From an uncultured Poribacteria bacterium (GTDB lineage Bacteria; Poribacteria; WGA-4E; WGA-3G), in contig OX639973.1 in assembly GCA_951828385.1 (NCBI GenBank), positions 5,199,200-5,263,199 on the forward strand: a stretch of 64,000 nt of DNA, written 5' to 3'. The notes beneath the pieces were generated by a model. That model was not told the DNA's origin. It ran no database searches and worked only from the letters and a program-made list of their open reading frames with translations. How positions within the stretch are numbered: the stretch's first letter is position 1; each line of letters opens with the position of its first letter. Of this stretch, positions 6,301 to 23,058 are shown piece after piece. The position numbers and the translations under genes were made by a program.

Positions 6301-6830
6301 ATTTTAAGCTCCGTTAGGACTTACACACTTCACCGGTAGGTGCGGTTTGATGAGGTTTAAGTATTTAAATGCCGTAATTTCCGAAACTTCCGAACGTGCA
6401 TCATGCCACATCCACATTGAAAGGATAGCCGATAGACGGACAAACAGCAACTTGGGTTATAATCAGTCAATTCAGTTGTTATTAATTATTAAATTGTAAA
6501 GACTATATCTAACTAATATTATACGGTATTTTTTGGGTAAAAAGCAATAAATTTAATAAAAGTTGCTAATTTGGCTTGAAAAGTGTATAATATTTTAGAA
6601 TTCCATACACTGGCATCGATCGGACTTATGGACACCGAAGAACGGCATTTTCCATATTTTTTCGTCCCTATCCGCATCTGGCATTTTATGTTGAACTCAC
6701 AGTATAAAAAACGCATTCAGTAAGGTTAGGGATTTTTACTTTGGATTTTAGCGTTCCCTTCGTGGTAGAATAGATATATGGAGTTTATCCAGTTCATGAA
6801 AAAGGTACCTTACTGTGAGGAAATGTATTG
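6301..6830. other. intergenic region between divergent genes
   Basis: This 530-base stretch separates the kinase gene (minus) from the first primase-like gene (plus). It holds TAGGACTTAC at 6315, a motif also found at the ends of the 49506-49595 element, followed by CCGGTAGGTGCGGTTT (6332-6348), a half copy of the palindromic repeat. The rest is AT-rich (about 6470-6600). I see no convincing gene; a short minus-strand frame at 6519-6716 has no recognisable content. Confidence 0.5.
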
Positions 6831-9788
6831 ATGACAACCGATGTCTTGCAAGATTTGATTGCCCGCTGCCAGCAACGGCACGAGAATCCACTTAAGCAAC
6901 GGAAGACAACCTCAACACCTCGGCTTTACAAAGGGATTCCTTACCATTTCACAGCCTATTGTGCACACAGATACCCGGTGCTGCTTCAAGACTTGGAGGC
7001 AGCAGGCATTTCCTTTATGCCGAGCGGACAGGCTCCTGGAACCGACCGGCCGCCGCGTAATTTTGGAGGGGAACGGTTCTTGAAACGTCAAGAGGCGATA
7101 GACTGGAGGCTCACCCAATGGCACAATTCGTGGGGGATTCACGTCTATACGGGGATGCCCTCAGCACGCGATGACGCGCCATGGCATGATGTCGACTTTA
7201 AATATGAAGCCTTATGTGCCGCACCTGAGGCTATTCTTGCTTGTGTTCAAGCACTTGTTGATGCCGTTGAGAACCCATTGTTGACGCTGTCAAAGTCCGG
7301 CGGGCTCCGTTTTTCTTGTCGGATACCGGGGTACCTGCACCCAAATACCGAGCAAACACTGTTGGCTGTCAATAAACAGACATCGACAGCAGAGAATCCG
7401 CACCAACACAAAGCATATTTTGAAATTTTGGGTGAGAAGGGATACAACTCCTGGGATGCGCGCTATGAAATTCTGCTTGGAAATCTGTTAGATCCGCCTC
7501 TGATTCCTCAAGTGGTTTTCTTCGCAGCTATCGATGCACTTCGCGCCGCGCTTCATGAGCCTGTTCCTCAAAGCATGCAACGCAAGGAGAGCACCCCGGA
7601 CGCCCCCTACTCTCTCGGATCCTGTAAACTTGACCTCGCCAAAGAGGCTTTTTTCAGGCGTGGGTTTTCTTATCTCAGACAAGCAGATGGATTTCATTAT
7701 TGGAACCGGCAAGACCGTGAGATTGACAACACAGAGGTAGCATTGTGGGAGAATGAAGAGGGTGTGTGGTTACGTGCGTCTACTTCCGATACCGGGCTAC
7801 CTATCGAGGCAACGCTTCTAACAGACGTTTGGAAGGATACTGGCATCTTGCCCCCGATCCCTGCAACAGGGCTGCCTATAGACGACAAGATACCCGCCAT
7901 TCGGGAAGGGAAACTGAGTCCACTATCAATAAAGCGTCCTACGCCTATATTACACAAGTCCGAACCGACCGAAAATACTTATGAAACACACGAAGAAATT
8001 GGTGTTCAGGTGCAGCATGCTTTCGATAGGAATGTGCGTGTCCTTGGATTTACTGCCGAGATAGACGCAGAGAAAGACCCTGAAGTAGAATCCGTTCTGC
8101 GCACGCGTAAGGCAATCTGTTTAAAGATCCCGAGTGTTGATCTCGCAGCAGCAGCATCGCGATTTCTTCAAAGCCAAGATGTCAGATCGGTGGCACAGTG
8201 GCCGGATCAGATACATCTCTGGGATCAGGTGAAAGATATCCCCAGTACTCGACTGTTTTCGGACCCAGAATACGCAAAAATAGCGGAACAACTTCTCGAA
8301 ACGCGCGACGGAACACAACCCCTCTGTATCATCAATACCCGCGAAGAGGAGCAACTGTTTCTTAGATGCAAACTCTCCAGAACCACACTGAAGACGTGGG
8401 TTGCCAATTGGCAAGGCAATGCCTTAGGCAACTTTGCTATAGCGCTACTGAATGCAGTAGACATCAGAGATAAATCCCATGAAAACGCTGTCAGACGGGT
8501 CCGAACAGTCGTCCAGACGTTTGAATGGCTCGAAGAAGAAATCCTCCAACAGATGTGCCACGTCGATGCGGCGACTGTTGAAAACATTCAGGCGTTCCCA
8601 GCGATTTATGCGGATCCAAGCTGGACCTTTTGGCAGCAACTCAAACGTTTCTTTGCACATTACACAAGGGACGCTGACGCACCGATACGATGGGAGGACG
8701 AAGCCCTACAGTTCCGGATGCCGCCCGTGCTGCATCCGAGCATCCAATACCTTTTCGTCAATATACCGGTTCTCTACGCTGAACATTTGCGGCGGGCATT
8801 CTTGGATGTAGAAACCGAGATCCTTCGCACGCAACCGATGGTGTGGGCCCCCGGAAACCGCGTTTTTCAGATTCGCACCGGTATTTATCCACGGGAAACA
8901 ATTTTAGACCTCAGCAACACTTGGGACGTTATGGCGATGTCTGAAACAGGGCAGCACATTTTTTCCAGAATTCAAGCAGAAATACAAAGGGATCCAAATA
9001 TTAAGCATGGCATTATCACCCATGTTTATGGAACTGAGCTGTTGAAGCATATAGCGAAAAATGAGAACGTCTGTTTCTTGACGAGTTTTCGAGAAGTGGA
9101 AGGATTAGAAACCGCTTTTCAAGAGGCGCAAGTCATCTGGATGGTTGGCGTGCCGGAAATGGGAGCACGCGCCATTTTGAACCGCACCCAGGTCTTATTT
9201 GGAAACGACGAGAAGCCCCTCTCTTATGAAATGGAACCTGAGCTCTACCGTTACAAAGACGAACGCGTCCATAGCGTTTATGAAAAAGAGGTCACCTGTA
9301 TATTCACACAGATTATAAAGTTGGCTCAGTTGAACCGTTTGCCAAACAAGAAGATTATGTTGATTACGGGTCTACGAATTCCCAATATCACCGACAGACC
9401 TGAAACACTCCTTTTTGACTGGGCAGATTTCGATGTCGCCGGTGACTTAGATAAACTCGCTGACGTGATAGCGACACGCCAACGTTTTGAGACCGAACGC
9501 GAAAATCTAACAGCTGAATCCAGCAGAAAAGAAGTCGAACGGGTATTAGGATGTTCGACAAGGCAGGCGAACCGAGTATTGGTAAGAATGAGGGGTGGGA
9601 AAATCGTACGTGTCACTTTCCGCGAGCAAATTCTTGCACTTCTCGCTGATGGTGAGAAGAAAACACCGGAACTCACGACAGCCATTCAAGGACATCCAAA
9701 AGCAATAAATACAGAACTCACGCGTCTTGTAAACAGGGGTGAAATTATAAAAATCAAACGGGGTCTGTATAAACTACCAGAGATGTAA
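6831..9788 (+). CDS. primase-like / degenerate helicase fusion, copy 1
   Basis: This is a 985-residue protein, a paralogue of the next gene. The N-terminal third resembles an archaeo-eukaryotic-type primase core: an acidic motif in WHDVDFKYE (about residue 120), then LSKSGGLRFSCR (about 150) where primases have their second motif. The rest resembles the back half of a DinG/XPD-type helicase, with a motif III-like stretch ending EHLRRAF, then FQIRTGIYPRETILD, HGIITHV and LNRLPNKKIMLITGL. No Walker A sequence is visible. Two winged-helix segments close the protein. Compared with copy 2 it lacks about 65 residues including four cysteines (junction near 8238-8255) and has about 11 extra residues near 8570-8600. 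The start is ATG 6831 after GTGAGG. Function in replication, repair or mobile DNA is inferred. Confidence 0.6.
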   Translation: MTTDVLQDLIARCQQRHENPLKQRKTTSTPRLYKGIPYHFTAYCAHRYPVLLQDLEAAGISFMPSGQAPGTDRPPRNFGGERFLKRQEAIDWRLTQWHNSWGIHVYTGMPSARDDAPWHDVDFKYEALCAAPEAILACVQALVDAVENPLLTLSKSGGLRFSCRIPGYLHPNTEQTLLAVNKQTSTAENPHQHKAYFEILGEKGYNSWDARYEILLGNLLDPPLIPQVVFFAAIDALRAALHEPVPQSMQRKESTPDAPYSLGSCKLDLAKEAFFRRGFSYLRQADGFHYWNRQDREIDNTEVALWENEEGVWLRASTSDTGLPIEATLLTDVWKDTGILPPIPATGLPIDDKIPAIREGKLSPLSIKRPTPILHKSEPTENTYETHEEIGVQVQHAFDRNVRVLGFTAEIDAEKDPEVESVLRTRKAICLKIPSVDLAAAASRFLQSQDVRSVAQWPDQIHLWDQVKDIPSTRLFSDPEYAKIAEQLLETRDGTQPLCIINTREEEQLFLRCKLSRTTLKTWVANWQGNALGNFAIALLNAVDIRDKSHENAVRRVRTVVQTFEWLEEEILQQMCHVDAATVENIQAFPAIYADPSWTFWQQLKRFFAHYTRDADAPIRWEDEALQFRMPPVLHPSIQYLFVNIPVLYAEHLRRAFLDVETEILRTQPMVWAPGNRVFQIRTGIYPRETILDLSNTWDVMAMSETGQHIFSRIQAEIQRDPNIKHGIITHVYGTELLKHIAKNENVCFLTSFREVEGLETAFQEAQVIWMVGVPEMGARAILNRTQVLFGNDEKPLSYEMEPELYRYKDERVHSVYEKEVTCIFTQIIKLAQLNRLPNKKIMLITGLRIPNITDRPETLLFDWADFDVAGDLDKLADVIATRQRFETERENLTAESSRKEVERVLGCSTRQANRVLVRMRGGKIVRVTFREQILALLADGEKKTPELTTAIQGHPKAINTELTRLVNRGEIIKIKRGLYKLPEM

Positions 9789-10242
9789 AGTGGTGACTAT
9801 TGCTCTTGATTTGGGTGATCACGCACATCATTAGAGACAGCTGGCATCTCGGATATCTCATCTCTTTTTACTGAAAGCAGATTGAATACTTACCTCTCAC
9901 GCTTTCTTTTCTTCCATCCTGTTTTGCGTATACATTTCTACTTGCGTATCAACAACTTGCGTGTAGCGATGTAATCCCCGCTTTGAGCGGATCTGATGTG
10001 AAATATTTATCCGATAAGTCTTCCGAAAATAGCGGCGAATCACAAAAAGTTTTATTGGGATATTTATATATTTTTATTTTTATTTGAAAATATGTCCTAA
10101 CACAACTTACGCTTAAACCCTGATGACTATTGACTTTATATCAATTTAAAAGTTTGACCAAAAATGAAATTTGTGATAATATATATTCCTAACTTCTGTG
10201 AAAATATAAAGTTTGTAAACGCTTCATTTGGGAAATGTATCA
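9789..10242. other. intergenic spacer between the two paralogues
   Basis: No gene is visible in these 454 bases. The second half is very AT-rich and carries the promoter noted at 10154-10182. The last few bases before each paralogue's start are similar (AAATGTAT followed by the ATG), consistent with duplication that included part of the leader. Confidence 0.5.
10154..10182 (+). promoter_or_regulatory. sigma-70-like promoter for the second paralogue
   Basis: TTGACC at 10154-10159 and TAATAT at 10177-10182 are separated by exactly 17 bases. Transcription would begin near 10189, giving a leader of about 54 bases before the ATG at 10243. The surrounding sequence is AT-rich. It implies that the second copy is transcribed independently of the first. 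Confidence 0.6.
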
Positions 10243-13200
10243 ATGACAGCCAGTGTCTTGTCAGATATTATTTTACGCTGCCAGCAACGGCATGAGAATC
10301 CACTTAAGCAACGGAAGACGATCTCAGTACCTCAACCTTACAAAGGGCTTCCTTACCATTTTACAGTCTATTGTGCGCACAGATACCCTGTGATGCTTCA
10401 AGACTTGGAGGCAGCAGGCATTTCCTTTATGCCGAGCGGGCGAGCCCCTGGATCCGACCGTCCGCCGCGATCTTTTGGAGGCGATCGGTTCTTGAAACGT
10501 CAACAGACAGCAAACTGGGACACCGTCCAATGGTTGAAGTCGTGGGGGATTCACGTCTATACGGGGATGCCCTCAGCACGCGATGACGCGCCATGGCATG
10601 ATGTCGACTTTAAATATGAAGCCTTATGTGCCGCACCTGATGCCGTTCTTGCTTGTGTTCAAGCGCTTGTTGATGCCGTTGCGAACCCATTGTTGACGAT
10701 TTCAAACTCTGGCGGGCTCCGCTTTTCTTGTCGGATACCGGGGTACCTGCACCCAAACACCAAGCGATCAAGATTGTATGTCTATAAAGGGACACCGACA
10801 GCAGAAAATCCGCACCAACACGACGCGTATGTTGAAATCTTCGGCGAGAAAGGACACACTTGCTGGGATGGGCGCGCTGAAATCCTGCTTGGAGATTTGT
10901 TAGATCCGCCTGTCATTCCTCAAGAGGTGCTCTTCGCGCCTATCGATGCACTTCGCACTGTGCTTCACGAACCGGGTCCGCAAACCCTTCAATACATCGA
11001 GAACCCCTCCGAGGTACCATACTCTCTCGGATCGAATAAACTTGATCTCGCCAAAGAGGCGTTTTTCAAGCGAGGGTTTTCTTATCTCAGGCAAGAGAAT
11101 GGATGCCACTATTGGCACCGGCAAGGTAGTGAGAGTGGCAACACGGAGGTATCATTGTGGGAGAACGAACGGGGCGTGTGGATATGTGCCTCTACCTCTG
11201 ATATTGGGCTGCCTATGGAAGCAACACTCATAACGGAGGTTTGGGAGGATACTGGCATCCTCCTGCCGATCCCCGCAACGGGGCTCCCTGTAGACGATAA
11301 GGTGCCTGCCATTCGGGAAGGGACACTCAGTCCATTGGCAATAAAACGTCCGGCTCCGGTCTTGCACAAGTCCAGACCTACAGAAGATATTCACGAAACA
11401 CGAGAAAAAATTAGTGTTCAGGTGCAGCGTGCTTTCGATAGGAACGTGCGCGTTCTGGGATTTATTTCCGATGTAGATGCGGAGAAAGAAGGTGAAGTAG
11501 AATCCTTTCTGCAAAATAGTGCAGTAATCTACGCGCAGGATTCTGAGCTTGCAGCAGAAGCGGAGCAATTTTTTCAAAAGCGAAATGTCGGATCGGTCAC
11601 ACGCTGGCGGGATCGGATGTATCTCTGGGATGAAGTGAAAGATATCCCGATTGACGTACGCATGGCAACTCCGTTCGAACGTGGTAACGTCTGTGAGGAT
11701 GCTCAGCGGTGTGAAGTACTAGAGAAAAAGGGCGGGAACCCGACTGAAATTATCTGTCCACACTGCCGCGTCTATACAGCATGTCAGGCCCGTGGCTATC
11801 TATCGCAATTCTCCATATTACAAACTACCAAAACACAAATATTAGAGGATTTTCGACTGTTTTTGAATCCACAATACGGAAAAATAGTGGAACGCCTTCT
11901 CGAAAAGCGTGATGGCACACATCCGCTTTGTATCATCAATGTCCTGAGAGAAAACGCGCTGTTTCTTCAATGCGAATTATCAAAAACCGAATTAGAGGAG
12001 TGGGTTGCCAACTGGCGAGGCAGTGCCTTAGGAAACCTTGCCATACTCCTACTCAATGCAGTAGGCATCAGAGACAAAACCCATGCCCACTCCATCAAAC
12101 GCCTCCGGACAGTGATGCAGACGTTTGAATGGCTGGAGGGACAAATTATCCAACAGATGTGCCACGTCAAGGTCGAGGACAGATCGGATCCAGACTGGAC
12201 GTTCTGGCATCAACTCAAACGTTTCTTCGCACATTACACCAGGGACGCTGATGCACCGATGCAATGGGACGGCGAAGTCCTACGTTTCTGGGTGCCCCCG
12301 GTCCTACATCCAAGCGTCAGACACCTTTTGGTCACCTCCCCAGCGCTCTACGGCGAGCATCTACATCGGACGTTCTTCGATTCGGAAACCGAGATTCTTC
12401 CCACCGAACCGATAACGTGGGTTCCTGGAAACCGCGTTTTCCAGATTCGCACCGGGATTTATCCACGAGAGACAATTTTAGATATCAGTAACACATGGGA
12501 TGTGCTTGGCGTGTCTGAAACAGGACAGCACATTTTTTGGAGAATCCAAGCTGAAATTGAACGGGATCCGAATATTAAACATGGGATTATAACGCATGTT
12601 TACACAATGGGACAACTCAAGGATATCGTGAAACATGAGAACATCTGTTTTTTGACGGATTTCCGAAGGGTGAAAGGATTGGAAACCGCTTTTCAAGAGG
12701 CAGAAGTCATCTGGATAGTTGGCGTACCGGAAATAGAACCACACGCCATTTTGGAGCGCACGCAGATCTTGTTTGGAAACGACGAAGAACCCCTCTCTTA
12801 TCAAATGGAACCTGAGCTCTACCGTTACAAAGACGAACGCGTCCAGAGCGTTTATGAAAAGACGGCCACCTGTATATTCACACAGATTATGGAGCTGGCT
12901 CAACTGAACCGTTTGCCAAACAAGAAGATTATGTTGATTACGGGTCTACGAATTCCCAATATCACCGACAGACCCGAAACACTCCTTTTTGACTGGGCAG
13001 ATTTCGACGTCGCCGGTGACTTAGATAAACTCGCTGACGTGATAGCGACACGCCAACGTTTTGAGACCGAACGCGAAAATCTAACAGCTGAATCCAGCAG
13101 AAAAGAAGTCGAACGGGTATTAGGATGTTCGACAAGGCAGGCGAACCGAATATTGGTAAAAATGAGGGGTGGGAAAATCATACGTGTCACTTTCCGCGAG

Positions 13201-13371
13201 CAAATTCTTGCACTTCTCGCTGATGGTGAGAAGAAAACACCCGAACTCACGGCAGCGATTCAAGGACATCCAAAAGCAATAAATACAGAACTCACGCGCC
13301 TCGTGGGGAGAGGGGAAATTGTAAAGATTCGACGCGGGCTTTACAGACTTCCAGAACCTGAGAACGGATAA
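10243..13371 (+). CDS. primase-like / degenerate helicase fusion, copy 2
   Basis: This is a 1042-residue paralogue of the previous gene, with the same primase-like N-terminus (WHDVDFKYE; ISNSGGLRFSCR) and helicase-like C-terminal half (LVTSPALYGEHLHRTF, FQIRTGIYPRETILD, LNRLPNKKIMLITGL). It keeps a cysteine block that copy 1 has lost: GNVCEDAQRC, then IICPHCRVYTACQARGYLSQ (encoded about 11686-11805). This resembles the iron-sulphur or zinc insertion of DinG/XPD-type helicases. As in copy 1 no Walker A is visible, so ATP-driven unwinding is doubtful. The C-terminus has two winged-helix segments. The last 450 bases are nearly identical to copy 1 while the middle has diverged. The start ATG 10243 matches copy 1; an upstream in-frame TTG at 10228 is less likely. 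Confidence 0.6.
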   Translation: MTASVLSDIILRCQQRHENPLKQRKTISVPQPYKGLPYHFTVYCAHRYPVMLQDLEAAGISFMPSGRAPGSDRPPRSFGGDRFLKRQQTANWDTVQWLKSWGIHVYTGMPSARDDAPWHDVDFKYEALCAAPDAVLACVQALVDAVANPLLTISNSGGLRFSCRIPGYLHPNTKRSRLYVYKGTPTAENPHQHDAYVEIFGEKGHTCWDGRAEILLGDLLDPPVIPQEVLFAPIDALRTVLHEPGPQTLQYIENPSEVPYSLGSNKLDLAKEAFFKRGFSYLRQENGCHYWHRQGSESGNTEVSLWENERGVWICASTSDIGLPMEATLITEVWEDTGILLPIPATGLPVDDKVPAIREGTLSPLAIKRPAPVLHKSRPTEDIHETREKISVQVQRAFDRNVRVLGFISDVDAEKEGEVESFLQNSAVIYAQDSELAAEAEQFFQKRNVGSVTRWRDRMYLWDEVKDIPIDVRMATPFERGNVCEDAQRCEVLEKKGGNPTEIICPHCRVYTACQARGYLSQFSILQTTKTQILEDFRLFLNPQYGKIVERLLEKRDGTHPLCIINVLRENALFLQCELSKTELEEWVANWRGSALGNLAILLLNAVGIRDKTHAHSIKRLRTVMQTFEWLEGQIIQQMCHVKVEDRSDPDWTFWHQLKRFFAHYTRDADAPMQWDGEVLRFWVPPVLHPSVRHLLVTSPALYGEHLHRTFFDSETEILPTEPITWVPGNRVFQIRTGIYPRETILDISNTWDVLGVSETGQHIFWRIQAEIERDPNIKHGIITHVYTMGQLKDIVKHENICFLTDFRRVKGLETAFQEAEVIWIVGVPEIEPHAILERTQILFGNDEEPLSYQMEPELYRYKDERVQSVYEKTATCIFTQIMELAQLNRLPNKKIMLITGLRIPNITDRPETLLFDWADFDVAGDLDKLADVIATRQRFETERENLTAESSRKEVERVLGCSTRQANRILVKMRGGKIIRVTFREQILALLADGEKKTPELTAAIQGHPKAINTELTRLVGRGEIVKIRRGLYRLPEPENG

Positions 13372-14700: not shown

Positions 14701-15423
14701 CTATTTCACGGATTTCAGATGTGCCCAAGTCGTCGCGAGTTTGCTTCTCGCATCAACTGGTAGCGAGGGACCATCAGGACCATAAACCAAGACATCATCA
14801 TATTTCGCAACGGTACTCCAAGTTGCGAGACCGACTCTGCCAACACCATCTTCGGTGTTATCGTCCACCTTCGCGACTTCTTCATCGTTGAGGAAGAGCG
14901 TGTAGCTGCCCGGTTTATTGACAATCTTGATGCTATACCACTCATCATCTTCTATCGTGTGGGCGCTGTTGGCACCACCTTTGCCACCCCAAGATTCAAC
15001 TTGCGAGCGTGTGTTTCCCCAACCGCCGAGGTTCCACCAGTACTCCAATGAAGGTTTGAGTTTCTCCATGCGCGGCGGATGGTCTTCAAGTGCTTGATTG
15101 CGGGCTTGCATCAAACCTTGGCATCGGAACATAATCAGGAAGCCTTCAGCACCGCTGATTTTATTCCCTCTCACCTCAAAGGTGTAATCATTCCACTTGT
15201 CGTCCCAAAATTCGTCAGCGACGACGCTCATGCAGTTGGGTACATTTTGGAGTTGATGGTATTCATCAGCCTTGAATTCCCAATCTCCAAAGAGGGCGAC
15301 CCATTTCTTCTCAGATTCCTTTGGGTCATCAAAATTATCTTCAAAATAGGTTTGTGACATCGCAATCGCAGCAATGCCAAGCGTAATACCGCAGATAGCG
15401 ATAAACAGATTACGTCTGTTCAT
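14701..15423 (-). CDS. secreted DUF1080/LamG-like protein with shared C-terminal motif
   Basis: This 240-residue protein has an N-terminal signal sequence (about 1-23, hydrophobic IAICGITLGIAAIAM, cleavage near MSQ). The body is a single jelly-roll domain with the pattern of DUF1080/3-keto-disaccharide hydrolase-like lectin folds (DNFDD..., WSTVAKYDDVLVYG). It probably binds or acts on sugar outside the cytoplasm. The C-terminus, VDARSKLATTWAHLKSVK, matches the C-termini of the proteins at 21247 and 22204, which otherwise look different; this may be a sorting or processing tag. ATG at 15423 after AAAAGGAG. Confidence 0.75.
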   Translation of the reverse strand: MNRRNLFIAICGITLGIAAIAMSQTYFEDNFDDPKESEKKWVALFGDWEFKADEYHQLQNVPNCMSVVADEFWDDKWNDYTFEVRGNKISGAEGFLIMFRCQGLMQARNQALEDHPPRMEKLKPSLEYWWNLGGWGNTRSQVESWGGKGGANSAHTIEDDEWYSIKIVNKPGSYTLFLNDEEVAKVDDNTEDGVGRVGLATWSTVAKYDDVLVYGPDGPSLPVDARSKLATTWAHLKSVK

Positions 15424-15530
15424 AATGGAATTCTCCTTTTGCTTGTATTTGGTGTAGCATAGCCTGTCAGGCTGTGCATATATAACCAGTTAGTTTATGC
15501 TTTTCCCAATCCATCTACTCACAAGTTCTA

Positions 15531-16160
15531 TTACTCTTCTTGAGAAAACAAGGGTAAAACAAATTTATTAAGGAAAGATTTTCTGGCATAAAAGGCTCTC
15601 GAGGTACTGCCATGCCCACGTCCCTTAGTTCTGGGCTGGATATATTTACCCATTTCGCTCTTAAGAGCAGAAAAACCTTTCGTGTGAATTGTTTCTCTGA
15701 CCAAATTATAATCGTCTTTTATCTGATTATAAACCTCAAGATCATCTAATAAATCGAAAGTTGTAACACCATAAAAAATTGATTTTTCTGTTTGTTTGTT
15801 TTCCGAAATTCTGGCGGCTATGACAAGTTGCCCTAATTTGGCAAGTAAATGACTACTTTCAAAATTAGTTTGCGCGACATTATCAGGATTGAACATTGTT
15901 ACTGCCATCGTCTCTTTGACCGTCAATTCTCCATTTACCTTGTATTTTAGGGGTATCAGTTTTAGTTCCCAAGACCCAGCGTTAGGTGCTTGTAATGTAT
16001 TATTGGAGAAACCTAAATATTTTTCGATTACTTGTCCAGCCCAACCTTTATTTTTTCCGCCGCCATCTTTAAATACAGTAACTTCATATTCATCAGCAAG
16101 TTCTCGAAGGTCCTGACCTATGATTCTTGATAATTTCTGAATTGCTTCTTCTCTTTCCAT
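15531..16160 (-). CDS. MutH/Sau3AI-like restriction endonuclease, copy A
   Basis: This 209-residue protein looks like a nuclease of the MutH/Sau3AI fold group: KGWAGQVIEKYLG (about 38-50), then PNAGSWELKLIPLK (about 60) with the E-x-K catalytic pair, then VKETMAVTM. The usual metal-binding aspartate before E-x-K is an asparagine, here and in copy B, so it is probably a feature of the subfamily rather than a dead mutation. A strongly conserved C-terminal block, GHGSTSRAFYARK, closes the protein. It lies 105 bases downstream of a closely related copy and beyond that a DNA methyltransferase, so the set reads as a type II restriction-modification system with a duplicated nuclease. ATG 16160 follows AAAGGATTT. 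Confidence 0.72.
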   Translation of the reverse strand: MEREEAIQKLSRIIGQDLRELADEYEVTVFKDGGGKNKGWAGQVIEKYLGFSNNTLQAPNAGSWELKLIPLKYKVNGELTVKETMAVTMFNPDNVAQTNFESSHLLAKLGQLVIAARISENKQTEKSIFYGVTTFDLLDDLEVYNQIKDDYNLVRETIHTKGFSALKSEMGKYIQPRTKGRGHGSTSRAFYARKSFLNKFVLPLFSQEE

Positions 16161-16265
16161 TATAAAATCCTTTCCTACATTGCTTTTATTCCCTCTTTAG
16201 CACAGTGAAACTGCCGGACGTTATAACACACTGCCATCTACAAGCACTTCAATATGCCTTATCCG

Positions 16266-16889
16266 TTACCCTTCCTGAGATAGTGCGGGAAAAATGAATT
16301 TTTCAAGAAAGACTTTTCTGGCATAAAAGGCTCTTGAAGTACTTCCGTGCCCCGTCCCTTTTGTTCTGGGCTGAATATATACACCCATTTTGCCAGTAAG
16401 AGCAGAAAATCCTTTTGTACGAATTGTTTCTCTGACTAAGTCATAATCTGCCTTTATCTGATTGTAGACTACTGGATCATCTAAATCGAAAGTTGTTACA
16501 CAGTATAAAATTGATCTTTCCTCCTGTTGACTTTCCCAAATTCTCGCAGCTACAACCATTTTTCTCAACTTGGTTAGCAAATGGCTATCTTCAAAATCAG
16601 TTCGTTCAACATTATAGGGATCGATCATTGTTACTGCCATTGTCTCTTTAATTCTCAATTCTCCATTCTGTAGATATTTCAAGGGAACTGTTTTTAGTTC
16701 CCACGACCCGAAGTTGGGTGCTTGAGCCGAATTAATAGGCAAATCTAAATGCCTTTCAAGTACATGTCCCGCCCAGCCTTTATTTTTCTTTTCGCCCTTA
16801 AATACAGTGACTTCATATTCACTGGCTAACTCTCGAAGATCCTGACCAGCAATCGTTGATAATTCTTCAACTGCTTTTTGTCTTTCCAT
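16266..16889 (-). CDS. MutH/Sau3AI-like restriction endonuclease, copy B
   Basis: This 207-residue paralogue is the one next to the methyltransferase, only 12 bases from its stop codon. It shares with copy A the motifs KGWAGHVLERHL, PNFGSWELKTVPLK (E-x-K), IKETMAVTM and GHGSTSRAFYARK, and roughly two thirds of its residues. The position of this copy suggests it is the original partner of the methylase, with copy A a later duplicate. Two subunits could form a heterodimer that cuts the two strands separately, or have drifted to different roles. The recognition sequence cannot be read from the protein. Confidence 0.74.
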   Translation of the reverse strand: MERQKAVEELSTIAGQDLRELASEYEVTVFKGEKKNKGWAGHVLERHLDLPINSAQAPNFGSWELKTVPLKYLQNGELRIKETMAVTMIDPYNVERTDFEDSHLLTKLRKMVVAARIWESQQEERSILYCVTTFDLDDPVVYNQIKADYDLVRETIRTKGFSALTGKMGVYIQPRTKGTGHGSTSRAFYARKVFLEKFIFPALSQEG

Positions 16890-16901
16890 AGCTTTCTCCT
16901 A

Positions 16902-18056
16902 TTACCAATCGCTATTTGAGCTATCCTCAAATAATTCACTAAACAATTCATCAACCCTTTTTTGAGCAATTCGGTTATATTCATCTTCCTTCTCAATCAT
17001 TATCCATTTCCGTTTGTGTTGCTCGGCTACAACGGCTGTAGTTCCAGTTCCAGAGAATGGATCAAGAATAAGATCACCTTCATTGGTTCCAGCTAAGATA
17101 AGCCGATTAATGACCGCTGAAGGCTTTTGCGATGGGTGTTTCCCATATTTCCGCTCCGATGGTTTGGTGAGTGGAATTTCCCACATGTTTCGCATTTGCT
17201 TGTTATTGTTCATTGCCTTCATTATTTGATAATTGAAAGTCCAATTTTTAGCTTTCTTACTTTCATTATTGACTGCCCAAATGATAAACTCGGTAGACTC
17301 AGTAAACATTCGGCAGGTAATATTGGGCTGGGCGTTAGGTTTATACCAGACAATTTGGCTAATAATTCGTCGGTTGAACAAACTTTGAAGAATAAAACCA
17401 ATTGTGAAGATACAGTGAAAAGATCCAAAGATAAACAAATTCCCGTTCGTTTTTAACAACCTCAAAACCTCGGTAATCCAATCAACCGTGAACTGGAAAT
17501 AATCGTCCTGTGCAAAAATATCCCATTGTTCCTGCATCGTGACATGAGAACTGAATGCCCAACCAAGGCCTTTTTTCCTTGACATATTAAACGGTGGATC
17601 AGTGATACAACAATCAAAAATTCCATCAGGAAAAGACCGCATAACGTTTATGCAGTCCCCTGATACAATTTGATTGATCGGAAATTCCTCAGTTCCCCCA
17701 AAAAGAGTTGGTGAATATCCAATACCTTCAGAAGATGGATCGCGTATTTCACCCCCTACTATTTTCGGGGATACTTGTGTGTTTTTTAGTGGATGGATTC
17801 CTGTTGAAAGATATTCTATCAACTGGGTCTTCTTCAACGATGAATATCCTTTTAACCCACGTCCCTTGAGTTCTTCTCTTAACTCCTTTACGCGCATTTG
17901 GTGGTGATTTACTTGTTCAACAGTGTTCCTTAATGGATGGATTCCTGTCGAAAGATATTCAATCATCTGGATTTTCCTTAATGACGAATATCCTTTCAGT
18001 CCTCGCTTTTTAAGTTCCTCTCTTAAGTCTTTGGTTGGCATCCGGAAGTAGTTCAT
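16902..18056 (-). CDS. beta-class DNA methyltransferase with tandem SAP-like repeats
   Basis: This is an N6-adenine or N4-cytosine methyltransferase of about 384 residues. The catalytic motif is ITDPPFNMS (motif IV) and precedes the AdoMet-binding motif DPFSGTGTT (motif I), the beta-class order. The N-terminus has two copies of a 40-residue helical motif (KDLREELKKRGLKGYSSL and VKELREELKGRGLKGYSSL, each followed by IEYLSTGIHPL), which look like SAP-type DNA-binding repeats. The open frame continues upstream to an ATG at 18146, but that lies inside a MITE-like element at 18084-18238. The start at 18056, after AGGAAG, is preferred. It pairs with the two nucleases just downstream. Confidence 0.88.
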   Translation of the reverse strand: MNYFRMPTKDLREELKKRGLKGYSSLRKIQMIEYLSTGIHPLRNTVEQVNHHQMRVKELREELKGRGLKGYSSLKKTQLIEYLSTGIHPLKNTQVSPKIVGGEIRDPSSEGIGYSPTLFGGTEEFPINQIVSGDCINVMRSFPDGIFDCCITDPPFNMSRKKGLGWAFSSHVTMQEQWDIFAQDDYFQFTVDWITEVLRLLKTNGNLFIFGSFHCIFTIGFILQSLFNRRIISQIVWYKPNAQPNITCRMFTESTEFIIWAVNNESKKAKNWTFNYQIMKAMNNNKQMRNMWEIPLTKPSERKYGKHPSQKPSAVINRLILAGTNEGDLILDPFSGTGTTAVVAEQHKRKWIMIEKEDEYNRIAQKRVDELFSELFEDSSNSDW

Positions 18057-18083
18057 AAATTTAAGTATCTTCCTGTAGAATTT

Positions 18084-18238
18084 AACCCAAGTTGCTACCA
18101 ACGGATTTTGAGCATTGGAACACGGTTTTTCAAACACTTTCTTCACCCCGTAGGGGTGGCATGTCTATAGAAACGGCATATTTAAGCGGCCGCACTCCGT
18201 AGGAGTGCCATGTCTATAAATAGGTGGCAACTTGCGTT
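18084..18238. mobile_element. MITE-like element with terminal repeats and 7-bp target duplication
   Basis: The 155-bp element has no gene. Its ends are AACCCAAGTTGCTACC and GGTGGCAACTTGCGTT (14 of 16 positions complementary). It is flanked by the direct repeat AGAATTT at 18077-18083 and 18239-18245. Inside, a unit CCCGTAGGGGTGGCATGTCTATAG is followed by a similar CTCCGTAGGAGTGCCATGTCTATA. It has landed just upstream of the methyltransferase gene and adds false in-frame codons to it. Relatives are at 39459 (left end only) and 61938-62181. Confidence 0.8.
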
Positions 18239-18334
18239 AGAATTTAGTAGAAATCTGTTCTAAACTTCGGTCAAGAAAGTGGTTAAGCCTATTTAAAAAT
18301 CTGCTGTGTTCATGAAGCGTAAGGTTGACTATAG

Positions 18335-19987
18335 TTAATGATTAAGCGAAAATTCGGCTGAATTTAACAAGACCCAATAGAGGTCTTCATAAGCCAAGTC
18401 TTTGTTACGATAGAGGCTGCGTTCCATATAGCGTTGGAAATAGGTTTTCTCTTTCGCAGTTGGCAACCGAGACAAGACGTTAAGATAGATATACTCCAAG
18501 CGATCTGCCGGTGCGCGCCATTTTGCCAAGACGTAATTGACAAAGCTGCCGCGTTCGCCATGACTCGCGCTATCGTTCACCATACTCCCATTAATCATCA
18601 TGAGCGCTTGAGGCACAGTTCCATTGAAAGCCTCAATCTCTTCCATCTCGCCGTTATCGAGTAAAAAAAGAAATTTTTCGAGATGCTCACGTTTCTTTCC
18701 TTCAAGGTCGCGTAGCATGCCCATGCGGTCTTCACCACCTTGCCTATTATTCCCATTCATTTTCTCTTTCTGAAGCCGTTCAAACTCGGTCGCCTGTAGT
18801 AGCGAATAGAAAAACTGCTCAGCACTTAGAGGTTTCACATACGCATGTGAGTAATACTGTTCGTCGTCTTTATTACTCTTATTCGTTTCTGATGTCCGCT
18901 GGTAAGTTTCTGAATTAAGGATTGTCCGCATCAAGTGTTGTAAATCGTAATCGTGGATGACGAGATCTCCCGCGAGCCAGTCCAACAATTCGGCGTTAGT
19001 CGGGAGATTCTCTTCACCGAATCCGTCGATCGGTTCAACAAAGGCGCGCCCCATAAAATGTTTCCAGACGCGGTTTACGATTGCACGGCTAAAATAGGGG
19101 TTTGATTTATCGGTCATCCATTGTGCAAGTGCCTCGCGCCTTTTGGTAAGTGAACCTTTGTATTCTGTGCCACCTAAGAAGCGTGGGGCGACTTCCGCGT
19201 CCATTCTCTCCACCCACATAGCCTTTCTCGGTTCGTTGGTAATCAGAAAATTTTCCATCCGCTTCTCATTACCCGCCATATCCATCGTCTCGATGTATCC
19301 CTTCTGCTCACTCTCAATACCATTAAAAAAGGCGGCAATACCGTAGTAATCTTTTTGGCTCCAAACTTCAGTCTTATGATCGTGGCATTCGGCACACTGC
19401 ATAGGCAGCCCTAAAAATAGGCGCGAACTGTGTGAAGTTAGCACGGCAGGGGATCGCTCATAGCGCATGATATAGTTTCCGGCACCGTTGTCCTTTAACT
19501 CGCCGTCCGCAGCGATGAGCTCTTGAACGAACTGATTGTAGGGTATATTTTTCGTCAACGCGCCCTGTACCCAAGCTGCTAATCCGATGCGCCGATCGTC
19601 GTTATCACCACGCCTGCCGATTAACCAGTTCACCCACAACCGAGTCCAATAGTCAATATAAGGCTCGCTTCCTAACAATTGATCAATCTTTTTTTGGCGT
19701 TTGTTCGGAGAACCGTCCTTGAGAAAATCCAAGACCTCTTCAGGGGCGGGTATTTTTCCGGTCAGATCAAGATGGACACGCCGCAAAAACTCCGTATCTT
19801 CTGCTATCCTTGACGGTTGAATACCTTCTCTCTTAAGCACTGCGTTGATGTGCCGGTCAAGGTGTTTTGTGCTTGACGAGACCTGCCGTGTCGGCGTGAC
19901 GGCAACTTTGGTGCAATTCAGTGTCAAGAACGCAAAAGTGAGCAAGACGAGTGAAGAGTAAGCGGTAATTCCAAAGAATTTTTTCAT
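18335..19987 (-). CDS. DUF1549/DUF1553 secreted protein
   Basis: This 550-residue exported protein belongs to the PSCyt2/PSD1 type common in Planctomycetes and relatives. The N-terminal signal is hydrophobic with a possible lipoprotein cysteine (LTLNC at 21-25, an imperfect lipobox). DUF1549 spans about 40-240 and includes the motif CAECHDHKTEVW; DUF1553 follows (about 270-420, with NPYFSRAIVNRVWKHFMGR). These genes usually sit beside a DUF1501 gene, and none is in this window. The biochemical role is not established; a link to polysaccharide handling at the cell surface is often assumed. ATG 19987 follows TTGGAGG. Confidence 0.88.
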   Translation of the reverse strand: MKKFFGITAYSSLVLLTFAFLTLNCTKVAVTPTRQVSSSTKHLDRHINAVLKREGIQPSRIAEDTEFLRRVHLDLTGKIPAPEEVLDFLKDGSPNKRQKKIDQLLGSEPYIDYWTRLWVNWLIGRRGDNDDRRIGLAAWVQGALTKNIPYNQFVQELIAADGELKDNGAGNYIMRYERSPAVLTSHSSRLFLGLPMQCAECHDHKTEVWSQKDYYGIAAFFNGIESEQKGYIETMDMAGNEKRMENFLITNEPRKAMWVERMDAEVAPRFLGGTEYKGSLTKRREALAQWMTDKSNPYFSRAIVNRVWKHFMGRAFVEPIDGFGEENLPTNAELLDWLAGDLVIHDYDLQHLMRTILNSETYQRTSETNKSNKDDEQYYSHAYVKPLSAEQFFYSLLQATEFERLQKEKMNGNNRQGGEDRMGMLRDLEGKKREHLEKFLFLLDNGEMEEIEAFNGTVPQALMMINGSMVNDSASHGERGSFVNYVLAKWRAPADRLEYIYLNVLSRLPTAKEKTYFQRYMERSLYRNKDLAYEDLYWVLLNSAEFSLNH

Positions 19988-20087
19988 AGTAGATAACCTC
20001 CAAGAGACACAATTTGGGGCAATATGTTCTTAAAAGTCTAACCGATTGTTGGCAGCATTGTCAAGGAAAAGCGGAGGAAGATCGATA

Positions 20088-21140
20088 TTAATCCCATCGA
20101 ACGCCTGTCGGAATGATGCCGACATCCTCACCACGGCGCATCGCTTCAGCAGCATCAAGGATACTTGCCAAGTCGTGTTGTGGTTTATAGTCCAACAGCG
20201 TTTTGATTTTGCTTAAATCAAATTCAAAATAGAGGGATTGCGGGAGTTGGACATCAACAAAATCCATCTGGTAGCGTTCAGATAGGTATGGCATCACCTC
20301 TTCGTGTTTGAAAACGCCATTTCCGCCGAGCGTGAATTCTTCGCCGACAGCGGCATCTTTCTCAATACCTAAAACCAACCCTTGTACAATATCTCGGACA
20401 TCGGTAAAATGTTCTTTGAAGGGTCGTCCATCAAGGTTACGTTTAAGGATGAACTTTTCTTGTCCGTCCCAGAGACCTTTGACAGCCTCAGCAGTTTCTA
20501 ACTCAGCCGGATTATCGCCTTTATAATTCTTGTATCGGTTGTAAATATTACTAAAGACGAACTGTTTTGGCAAACCATCTTCATTGAGGAATTCGCTCGG
20601 CTCAATGACGGTCGTAAATCGGAAAACTGTCGAAGGTACACCGTATTGGTGGTGATAGGTCATGCACAATTCCTCGCCGATCCATTTCGTAAGGAAATAG
20701 GGCATGTGATGGTACTTGGCAACCATATCCTCGGTGATAGGTTCATCGAAAAGTCTACCTTTTTCAGTGAGTTCCCAGTAAATCGCTTCCGTACAGGCAT
20801 AGACGAGGCGGTGAATATTCGGGTTAAATTCACGGATACACTCCAAAATATTGAGTGTCCCCATGCCGTTGATTTCCAAGTACTGACGGTTATCAAAGGG
20901 ACCCCCAAAGGCAGCAGCAATATGATAGATGGCATCTACACCTTCAACGGCTTTTTTGACATCCTCGTATTCGCGCAGGTCGCCAAGGACGGTTTCAACG
21001 CGTTCCGTGCCGTCCCATTTTCCGACACGATTCACATCATCCGGATAAACAAAGCTGCGGATATCGTGTCCTTTTTCCAACAATTTTTTGACGAGGTTTG
21101 ATCCGATGCGACCTGTACCGCCAGTGACTAAAATTTTCAT
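20088..21140 (-). CDS. NAD-dependent epimerase/dehydratase (extended SDR)
   Basis: This is a 350-residue extended short-chain dehydrogenase. The Rossmann motif GGTGRIGSNLVKKL starts at residue 7, the conserved DVxxA-like region is VDAIYHIAA, and the active-site Y-x3-K is in PYFLTKWIGE, with the partner serine replaced by the ACTEAIYW context. It should act on a nucleotide sugar or similar substrate with NAD(P), but the product cannot be told. C-terminal residues form the usual substrate domain. The genes on either side are not obviously in one pathway with it. Confidence 0.88.
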   Translation of the reverse strand: MKILVTGGTGRIGSNLVKKLLEKGHDIRSFVYPDDVNRVGKWDGTERVETVLGDLREYEDVKKAVEGVDAIYHIAAAFGGPFDNRQYLEINGMGTLNILECIREFNPNIHRLVYACTEAIYWELTEKGRLFDEPITEDMVAKYHHMPYFLTKWIGEELCMTYHHQYGVPSTVFRFTTVIEPSEFLNEDGLPKQFVFSNIYNRYKNYKGDNPAELETAEAVKGLWDGQEKFILKRNLDGRPFKEHFTDVRDIVQGLVLGIEKDAAVGEEFTLGGNGVFKHEEVMPYLSERYQMDFVDVQLPQSLYFEFDLSKIKTLLDYKPQHDLASILDAAEAMRRGEDVGIIPTGVRWD

Positions 21141-21246
21141 TCATTTTTTCTCCCAAAAGCCAATAAGGAGTCATAGCACCCAAACCTAAAGGATTGGGCT
21201 TGTGCTTCATAGATAGCAGTGTTCCCGAAGGAGCGTCTCACTCCAT

Positions 21247-22023
21247 TTATTGCTTTTTCAGATTTGCCCACCGAGTTGTGAGTTTCCCAGCTGCTTCGAC
21301 AGCAGCAAATTCTTCAACATAGCTCAGCAAATTCTCCATAAAAAGCTTTGCCATGTCTTTCGTATGGTTATCGTTACCTGCGATATAGTATTTATCAGGG
21401 GCAATCGCCATCATCAGAAACTTACCTTTCCCGAATTCCGCTTCCATAATGGCAGGTTGTCCCAAACTTTCCATCAGCACGTCAAATCCTGTTTGAGAAG
21501 CGATGACTTCCCACACAGTAGGCCAGCCTTGATGTCCCCAGCCTTCAAACGTTTTCTCATTCATACGGTTTGGTGCGTTAAAGAGCGGATGGTCCGCGTC
21601 TAATATTTCAAAATCTGGACTATCACGGTCACTCCGAACACAACTCAATCCAGACGGCAACCAATCCACATTCGCTTCATTCTGATCAGCTTGGGTCGGT
21701 TCCCAGACGACACCACCATTTTCGACGAAATCCTGAATCGCTTTTGCATTCTTGTCGAGGCTTTGGTGCAATCCAGCATTGTTGGTCGTCATGCTACCGA
21801 TTAAGAAAATCCTATTTTCCGCTTTGAGGGGAAGCTCCCCACCTTCAAGTGCCTTTGTCAGATCATCGTACTCAACTTTGAATTCATCCAGGGTCTGACG
21901 CAACGCATCAACCTTTGTCCACTCGTCAGCAAAATCAACAACAGCAATTTTAGCAGCTTCTACAGCCATTACGCTCAAAACGAGGTTCAAAATACAGAAC
22001 CCCACAAACAAACGGTGAAACAT
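21247..22023 (-). CDS. secreted ThuA/GATase-like protein with shared C-terminal motif
   Basis: A protein of about 258 residues starts at ATG 22023 with the ribosome site AAGGAG; a longer frame to 22059 has no such signal. A signal peptide is clear (LFVGFCILNLVLSVMAVEA). The mature part has an alternating beta/alpha pattern (KIAVVDFADEW..., RIFLIGSM..., FVENGGVVWEPTQAD, GKGKFLMMAIAPDKYY) like class I glutamine-amidotransferase-like or ThuA domains, but I see no catalytic cysteine. It may bind carbohydrate. The C-terminus VEAAGKLTTRWANLKKQ matches the tag in the proteins at 14701 and 22204. Confidence 0.65.
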   Translation of the reverse strand: MFHRLFVGFCILNLVLSVMAVEAAKIAVVDFADEWTKVDALRQTLDEFKVEYDDLTKALEGGELPLKAENRIFLIGSMTTNNAGLHQSLDKNAKAIQDFVENGGVVWEPTQADQNEANVDWLPSGLSCVRSDRDSPDFEILDADHPLFNAPNRMNEKTFEGWGHQGWPTVWEVIASQTGFDVLMESLGQPAIMEAEFGKGKFLMMAIAPDKYYIAGNDNHTKDMAKLFMENLLSYVEEFAAVEAAGKLTTRWANLKKQ

Positions 22024-22203
22024 AAGTTTTTGATACTCCTTGTTATAGAGTTGATACACACCTACACGATCACACGAGCGTTCTGCCGATTTGATTGAAT
22101 AGAAAGAAAGAGTGTTGCACTTGAGGGATGTGCAGTACTCTTTGACGGTTATCTTTGCCGAATTGTAAGCGGTGCTGAGTCACTCACAATTTCGCAAACG
22201 GGT

Positions 22204-23058
22204 TTATTGCAAGGATTTTATCTCTGCCCATTTCACTGCTAATTTATCTCTTGGTTCTACAGCAAATGCAGTGCTGATGAGCTTTATATTATCTATTGCC
22301 CACCACCAATCATTCTGCGCATCAATGACCCCGAAACTGATAACCATCTCAGTGGCATTCGCGGGATTATCAATAGGGATTTCTAACGTTTCGTTTATCT
22401 GTTCGCCATCCTTTAGGTCTTCCTCATCCAAGTCGAGGGTAGGAATCGTAACAAGGGTATGCGCGCCTGCGTCAATACCGACGCTCTTGAAGAATAGGAT
22501 GCGTTCTTCCTTACCGCCGTCGAAACTTACTGTTATCTCGCCGTTTTGCGTATCTTCAGGCCGCCAACTTGAATCTAACGTTAAGACGAGCGACTTTGCT
22601 GCTGCACCCTTGACTTTAATGGGTGGCGTAATTAAGTGGCCATTCCAACGACTCAACGCGTCAGGGTCGCCATTTCCGTCCCAATCGTCCCACTCATCCG
22701 GATCAGAAACGGCTCCGTTACCTATGCCTTTGCCGTCATTGTGTACGCCTGTGAACTCACTACGCCGTTGGTCTTCTGCTGCACGTGTCCACCACTCAAG
22801 GTCAACAATCGCCCAGGTTCTCCACTCAGGCATCCCGAGGTCTTTCGGGTTCTCGTTTGTAATTTCCCACCCCTCAGGCGGTGTACCTGACCAGACTTTA
22901 TTATCTTTAACCGCTTCCATTATACTGTCTTCGAGTGTTACATCCTCAAAATCTTCTTCAAAGAGAACAGTATCAGCTGCCCACACCAGTGGTGTTGAAA
23001 GACAAAGGGTCGTTATAAGGAACGCACGTCCAACGACTCCCATAATGCTGCTATTCAT
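22204..23058 (-). CDS. secreted jelly-roll protein with shared C-terminal motif
   Basis: A protein of about 284 residues. ATG 23058 follows the strong site AGGAGGGTAATC and is preferred to an upstream ATG at 23082. It has a signal peptide ending PLVWAAD. The mature protein starts LFEEDFEDV and is rich in aspartate and tryptophan, with a repeating beta pattern typical of MAM or carbohydrate-binding jelly rolls (IDAQNDWWWAIDNIKLIS near the end). The last residues VEPRDKLAVKWAEIKSLQ match the shared C-terminal motif. A long open frame on the opposite strand (22172-23086) is a shadow of this gene. Confidence 0.7.
   Translation of the reverse strand: MNSSIMGVVGRAFLITTLCLSTPLVWAADTVLFEEDFEDVTLEDSIMEAVKDNKVWSGTPPEGWEITNENPKDLGMPEWRTWAIVDLEWWTRAAEDQRRSEFTGVHNDGKGIGNGAVSDPDEWDDWDGNGDPDALSRWNGHLITPPIKVKGAAAKSLVLTLDSSWRPEDTQNGEITVSFDGGKEERILFFKSVGIDAGAHTLVTIPTLDLDEEDLKDGEQINETLEIPIDNPANATEMVISFGVIDAQNDWWWAIDNIKLISTAFAVEPRDKLAVKWAEIKSLQ

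Follow-up and report, generated by a model that had tools for sequence, protein, structure and literature searches.

Three predicted exported proteins of an uncultured Poribacteria bacterium were found to end in the same short peptide, a tag of 15–18 residues which, judging from its sequence features, probably acts as a modular C-terminal sorting signal for Sec-exported proteins that would be read by a factor of the cell envelope. The three genes lie within a stretch of 64,000 nucleotides (contig OX639973.1 of assembly GCA_951828385.1, positions 5,199,200 to 5,263,199; hereafter the window), and the tag recurs throughout the genome. A role in sorting or attachment is preferred because the position, the modularity and the strict residues of the tag fit nothing else as well. 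The initial annotation, made from the letters of the window, had proposed a sorting, anchoring or processing tag, and this was borne out at the level of the class: the element is C-terminal, linked to export and attached to bodies that fall into 19 clusters. The tag looks like an undescribed family of C-terminal signal.

All three genes are encoded on the reverse strand. Their tails, VDARSKLATTWAHLK (from 14757), VEAAGKLTTRWANLK (from 21300) and VEPRDKLAVKWAEIK (from 22260), are located where they had been described and are the sole matches to the motif in the window; in every case, 2–3 residues separate the end of the tail from the stop codon. Protein 1 (14701..15423, 240 amino acids) comprises a predicted Sec signal peptide of about 24 residues with an approximate cleavage site (15352..15423, heuristic), a domain similar to DUF1080/3-keto-disaccharide hydrolases (PF06439, E 2e-7) and the tag VDARSKLATTWAHLKSVK (14704..14757). 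Its AlphaFold model, computed without an alignment, had a mean pLDDT of 37, too low to be of use. Protein 2 (21247..22023, 258 amino acids from the ATG at 22023, in an open frame that extends to 22059 and further) is formed by a heuristically predicted signal peptide of about 24 residues (21952..22023), a body and the tag VEAAGKLTTRWANLKKQ (21250..21300). Protein 3 (22204..23058, 284 amino acids from the ATG at 23058, in an open frame that extends to 23082) has a signal peptide of about 27 residues predicted in the same way (22978..23058), a body and the tag VEPRDKLAVKWAEIKSLQ (22207..22260).

The N-termini of the three proteins (starts 15423, 22023, and 23058) are hydrophobic and resemble Sec signal peptides, as had been claimed, although protein 3 does not pass a stricter rule. 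The labels originally given to the bodies fared unevenly. The DUF1080-like assignment of protein 1 stood, but the ThuA/glutamine-amidotransferase-like fold of protein 2 had been recognized by eye only and its best Pfam match was Glyco_hydro_42M, with a non-significant E-value of 0.07, and the jelly roll suggested for protein 3 was not supported by any significant match in Pfam. Once signals and tails were stripped, no significant similarity was detected among the three bodies (best blastp E 0.38).

The whole genome, a single contig of 6.66 Mb, was searched with a degenerate DNA pattern encoding K-L-x-x-x-W-[GA]-x-h-K, along with a reversed control. The pattern gave 98 matches (49 + 49) and the control none; 97 of the matches lay in open frames closing 11–28 residues past the start of the motif, and the other one was interrupted by a stop codon within the motif. 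With a profile derived from 35 tails, 234 candidates were retrieved; 150 of them were scored, all with E-values below 0.02, and 149 of these could be aligned, a count that is a lower bound. A stop codon follows 147 of the aligned tags within 1–18 residues. The remaining two were a copy cut by a stop (place 2015465, mis-aligned to another W in the frame) and the only internal copy found, at about 3231431 (G000:C1:3231431, L220), which directly precedes a C-terminal domain (CTD) of type A, as used by the type IX secretion system (T9SS), so that tag and CTD stand in series. The body in front of this internal copy ends, by eye, in an ASPIC/UnbV-like stretch. The genome-wide consensus was V-[ED]-[PA]-x-[GD]-K-L-[AT]-T-T-W-[GA]-x-[LI]-K-x(1-7)-stop. 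Additionally, tagged fragments or genes with early stops were observed at G000:C1:2015486, 533364, 2837009, 3281958, and 5595971, suggesting that tagged genes continually arise and decay.

Over the 149 tags, the conserved positions were V (141), [ED] (101), [PA] (145), K (140), L (125), T (122), a second T (105), W (149), [GA] (144), [LI] (137) and the last K (148). Since W and the last K were favored by the way in which the matches were found, two sets of proteins not chosen by their tags were used as checks. Among 98 places found by their LamG domain, 82 were tagged, six had variants that keep the W (by eye), in one the tag was truncated by a stop, and nine were untagged; most of these nine proteins were large, and one was lipoprotein-like. 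The second set consisted of 29 matches to protein 3, namely the window copy and 28 other places, and the residues V, P, K, L, A, W, and K of the tag were kept in all 29. By contrast, the residue just before the tag was kept in 7% of these sequences and the three after it in 48–62%. Relatives of protein 3 were present in 28 of the 38 genomes of the genus. The many dispersed copies at the 3′ ends of genes could also be expected of a DNA-level element or mobile repeat that is translated by chance. However, L, T, G, V, and K, although fixed as residues, are encoded by widely differing synonymous codons across the tags, a single frame is kept and the reversed control gave zero matches. The codon variation indicates that selection acts on the peptide, not on the DNA, and refutes this explanation, which we regard as having practically no chance of being correct.

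The association of the tag with export was evaluated on frames of at least 180 amino acids with a strict heuristic rule for signal peptides, gene starts being heuristic as well. Under this rule, 124 of 137 tagged frames (about 90%) were positive, compared with 329 of the 1120 other large frames (29%) in the same DNA. The tagged frames that failed mostly had a signal recognizable by eye, or were fragments or long frames cut at the start, and no clear case of the motif on a cytoplasmic protein was seen. Short terminal peptides on unrelated proteins are also known from the cargoes of bacterial microcompartments and encapsulins; those of microcompartments are short terminal helices, and the cargoes of both kinds are cytoplasmic, whereas nearly all carriers of the tag have Sec signal peptides. 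Genes for microcompartment shells have been reported in Poribacteria (Kamke et al., 2014; PMC3909097), and would be in favor of a cargo peptide for an intracellular shell, an explanation that the signal peptides largely refute and that is hardly credible.

The bodies of the carriers are diverse. A Pfam scan of 93 carriers assigned 55 of them to Laminin_G_3 (LamG-like), and the other domains included PD40/TolB propellers, DUF1080, LTD, CBM9, WD40, and F5/8 type C. When the 93 bodies were compared by phmmer, they were separated into 19 unrelated clusters with sizes of 59, 5, 4, 4, 4, 2, 2, and 2, plus 11 singletons. Therefore, the tag is not a piece of one shared ancestral domain, a possibility that had been raised against it at the outset. 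The prevalence of LamG-like carriers and the position of the tail close behind the last strand would also be compatible with a structural cap, that is, the final element of a shared fold with no role in sorting. This is very improbable, given that the same tail is found on DUF1080-like, PD40/TolB-like, WD40, LTD, CBM9-like and unassigned proteins in so many clusters, and that the residue preceding it varies freely among the relatives of protein 3. No conserved gene neighbor was found, since no family was near most tags. As a separate observation, all ten proteins with ASPIC/UnbV-like C-termini recognized by eye in the DNA examined had a tagged gene no more than two genes away, where 3.2 such cases would be expected, in about ten loci only (G000, near 553627, 1283893, 2911389, 3212072, 4437142, 4462739, 4678772, 5351922, 5584143, and 6594636).

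The tag was detected in all of the 85 Poribacteria genomes, with 11–137 pattern matches each, dozens in nearly all of them, and 0–2 in the controls. Outside the phylum, one match was found in 14 genomes of Chloroflexi, Clostridia and others, a set in which the closest sister phyla were not included. Ten matches to the motif in small loci and 20-kb stretches taken from other Poribacteria genomes were all at most 13 residues from a stop, and the reversed control gave none. A single match in a viral contig was discarded, since it was not in the frame of the gene there, which resembles one for a phage tail sheath, but in a different one.

The initial annotation had set the tag apart from LPXTG, PEP-CTERM and type IX signals, and this distinction held, with no sortase in these genomes and no transmembrane helix, TIGR04183 match or GxY motif in the tag. 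When 25 tags alone were compared with NCBIfam and Pfam, no match was obtained at E-values up to 10, a search whose sensitivity is limited by the shortness of the peptides and the HMMER filters. There was no significant match to the tag in the PDB, TIGR04183 was absent among the families matched by the 93 whole carriers, and the tag strings were not found in the open-access papers searched. The PEP-CTERM/exosortase and GlyGly-CTERM/rhombosortase systems likewise employ recurring C-terminal signals on exported proteins. These signals contain a transmembrane helix, which the tag lacks, and exosortase (PF09721) was found in only three of the 85 Poribacteria genomes. LPXTG, the sortase signal, is also a short conserved motif near the C-terminus, but the tag has neither this motif nor a transmembrane helix, and sortase (PF04203) was found in none of the 85 genomes, while the control genomes matched as expected. 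The search for a co-occurring protease or sortase, suggested from the beginning, thus excluded classical sortases and showed exosortases to be nearly absent, ruling out both as partners of the tag. In its distribution, the tag resembles MYXO-CTERM, the myxosortase signal, which occurs throughout a single phylum, on dozens of proteins in each genome (PMC11980579). That signal, however, combines an invariant Cys with a transmembrane helix and an Arg-rich end; by contrast, Cys was present in one of 135 tails, and no tail had a transmembrane-like stretch or reached a hydropathy of 1.6 over 17 residues.

The type-A CTD of the T9SS (TIGR04183/PF18962) is similar to the tag in being C-terminal, borne by Sec-exported carriers with many unrelated bodies, and present in dozens per genome. 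It is, however, an Ig-like beta-sandwich of about 70–100 residues (40–100 in a wider definition) with conserved motifs, including GxY, and its carriers are much larger (median frame of 857 amino acids, compared with 272 for tagged frames; Mann-Whitney p 2e-24). Known CTDs have no motif in common with the tag, and this includes the short ones of Prevotella intermedia, with 43–55 residues and motifs B, D, and E (PMC11969387). A swap between tag and type-A CTD on one Fn3-like module (‘LPVxLSxF’) was considered and rejected, since tagged forms only, plus one decayed frame, were found in the DNA examined.

Another explanation is a docking peptide: the proteins would leave the cell by another route, and the tail would be held by non-covalent binding to a scaffold or glycan of the surface that is specific to the phylum, or lie on a membrane as a short cationic amphipathic helix. 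In agreement with this, L, W and L/I occur at i, i+4, and i+7, a spacing compatible with a single helix face; K and R make up 26% of the residues after the tag compared with 9% in the carriers overall; there is no transmembrane segment; and the carriers resemble binding modules. However, the hydrophobic moment of the tag also peaks at a strand-like 160 degrees, so that a helix is not established, and the W in 149 of 149 tags (partly due to the selection of matches) and the last K in 148 are stricter than amphipathicity requires. We therefore consider a docking peptide unlikely and prefer a sorting signal.

As a sorting signal, the tag could operate in four steps. The predicted N-terminal signal peptide would carry the protein across the inner membrane, where its folded body, most often lectin-like of the LamG type, would present the short tail, presumably exposed. 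The conservation of the nearly invariant Lys and Trp suggests that a dedicated, phylum-wide factor of the envelope recognizes them, after which the protein would be passed across the outer membrane or attached to it.

Candidates for such a factor were found among proteins related to the T9SS. A divergent protein resembling SprA, with about 2200 amino acids, was detected in 84 of the 85 genomes (L069:10119-16964, corresponding to G000:C1:3713135-3719980, in the genome of the window), as were proteins with Peptidase_C25. No PDB match was found for the SprA profile. Two C25 proteins of the genome of the window (L328:4708-10980 and L327:2347-7521) aligned to the model of the T9SS sortase PorU with 394–395 bits (E 1e-117 to 1e-118). 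Both carry the C25 propeptide and a FlgD-like CTD, one of them matches the PorU structure 6za2 (E 8e-35), and a PorV-like gene (L328:11121-12140) directly follows the first. Moreover, barrel proteins of the PorV/PorQ family numbered 11–21 per genome in all 30 genomes, above the cut-off, and 61 type-A CTDs exceeded the cut-off in the genome of the window. Together, the SprA-, PorU-, and PorV-like proteins and the type-A CTDs make an outer-membrane route resembling type IX a plausible host for the tag, which would then be a T9SS cargo signal in a wide sense, a second class beside the ordinary type-A CTDs of about 85 residues. It is possible, if somewhat doubtful, that the SprA-like translocon, the PorV/PorQ-family barrels or the PorU-like proteases are what reads the tag.

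Several observations weigh against this assignment, and no direct link between the tag and the apparatus was found. The whole SprA-like protein reached 162 bits (E 1.4e-47), below the curated equivalog cut-off of 200; both PorU-like scores were just below the model cut-off of 420. The tag lacks the length and the GxY motif of known T9SS CTDs, and the protein in which tag and type-A CTD coexist argues against simple redundancy between the two signals. Tag and T9SS-like parts are both phylum-wide, which makes their co-variation uninformative. A tagged gene directly upstream of the SprA-like gene was observed in only five genomes, all from the genus of the window and not in other families, so that a conserved operon was rejected; tags were no more frequent near PorV-family genes than expected by chance, in a rough count of the listed places. 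It is quite possible that Poribacteria have a sorting pathway of their own, in which a receptor would read a non-transmembrane tail of 15–18 residues and so bring mostly lectin-like proteins, up to about 150 in a genome, to the surface, beside the type IX-like apparatus or as a second input of it.

Other features were observed in the window. Two adjacent paralogous MutH-like endonucleases, the first of which was matched to MutH, lie beside an N6/N4 DNA methylase with SAP-like domains (15531-18146), an arrangement that looks like a restriction-modification cassette. There are also two tandem paralogs of about 1000 amino acids (6828-9788 and 10228-13371), the second of which had no Pfam match other than an AbiEi-like one at its C-terminus.

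The presence of SprA-, PorU-, and PorV-like genes in Poribacteria bears on the analysis of single-cell genomes of this phylum in which such CTDs were seen without any Por structural genes (Kamke et al., 2014; PMC3909097), and on the view, still held in recent papers, that the T9SS is confined to Bacteroidota (PMC12618676) or to the FCB group (PMC11205867). The tag itself has a wider interest: we know of little precedent for C-terminal signals that are short and lack a membrane helix and, to our knowledge, Poribacteria have not been grown in culture. These bacteria belong to the dominant symbionts of marine sponges (PMC3909097). By sequence alone, the tag defines a set of about 150 exported, mostly lectin-like proteins, which suggest themselves as candidates for interaction with the host and with its glycans.

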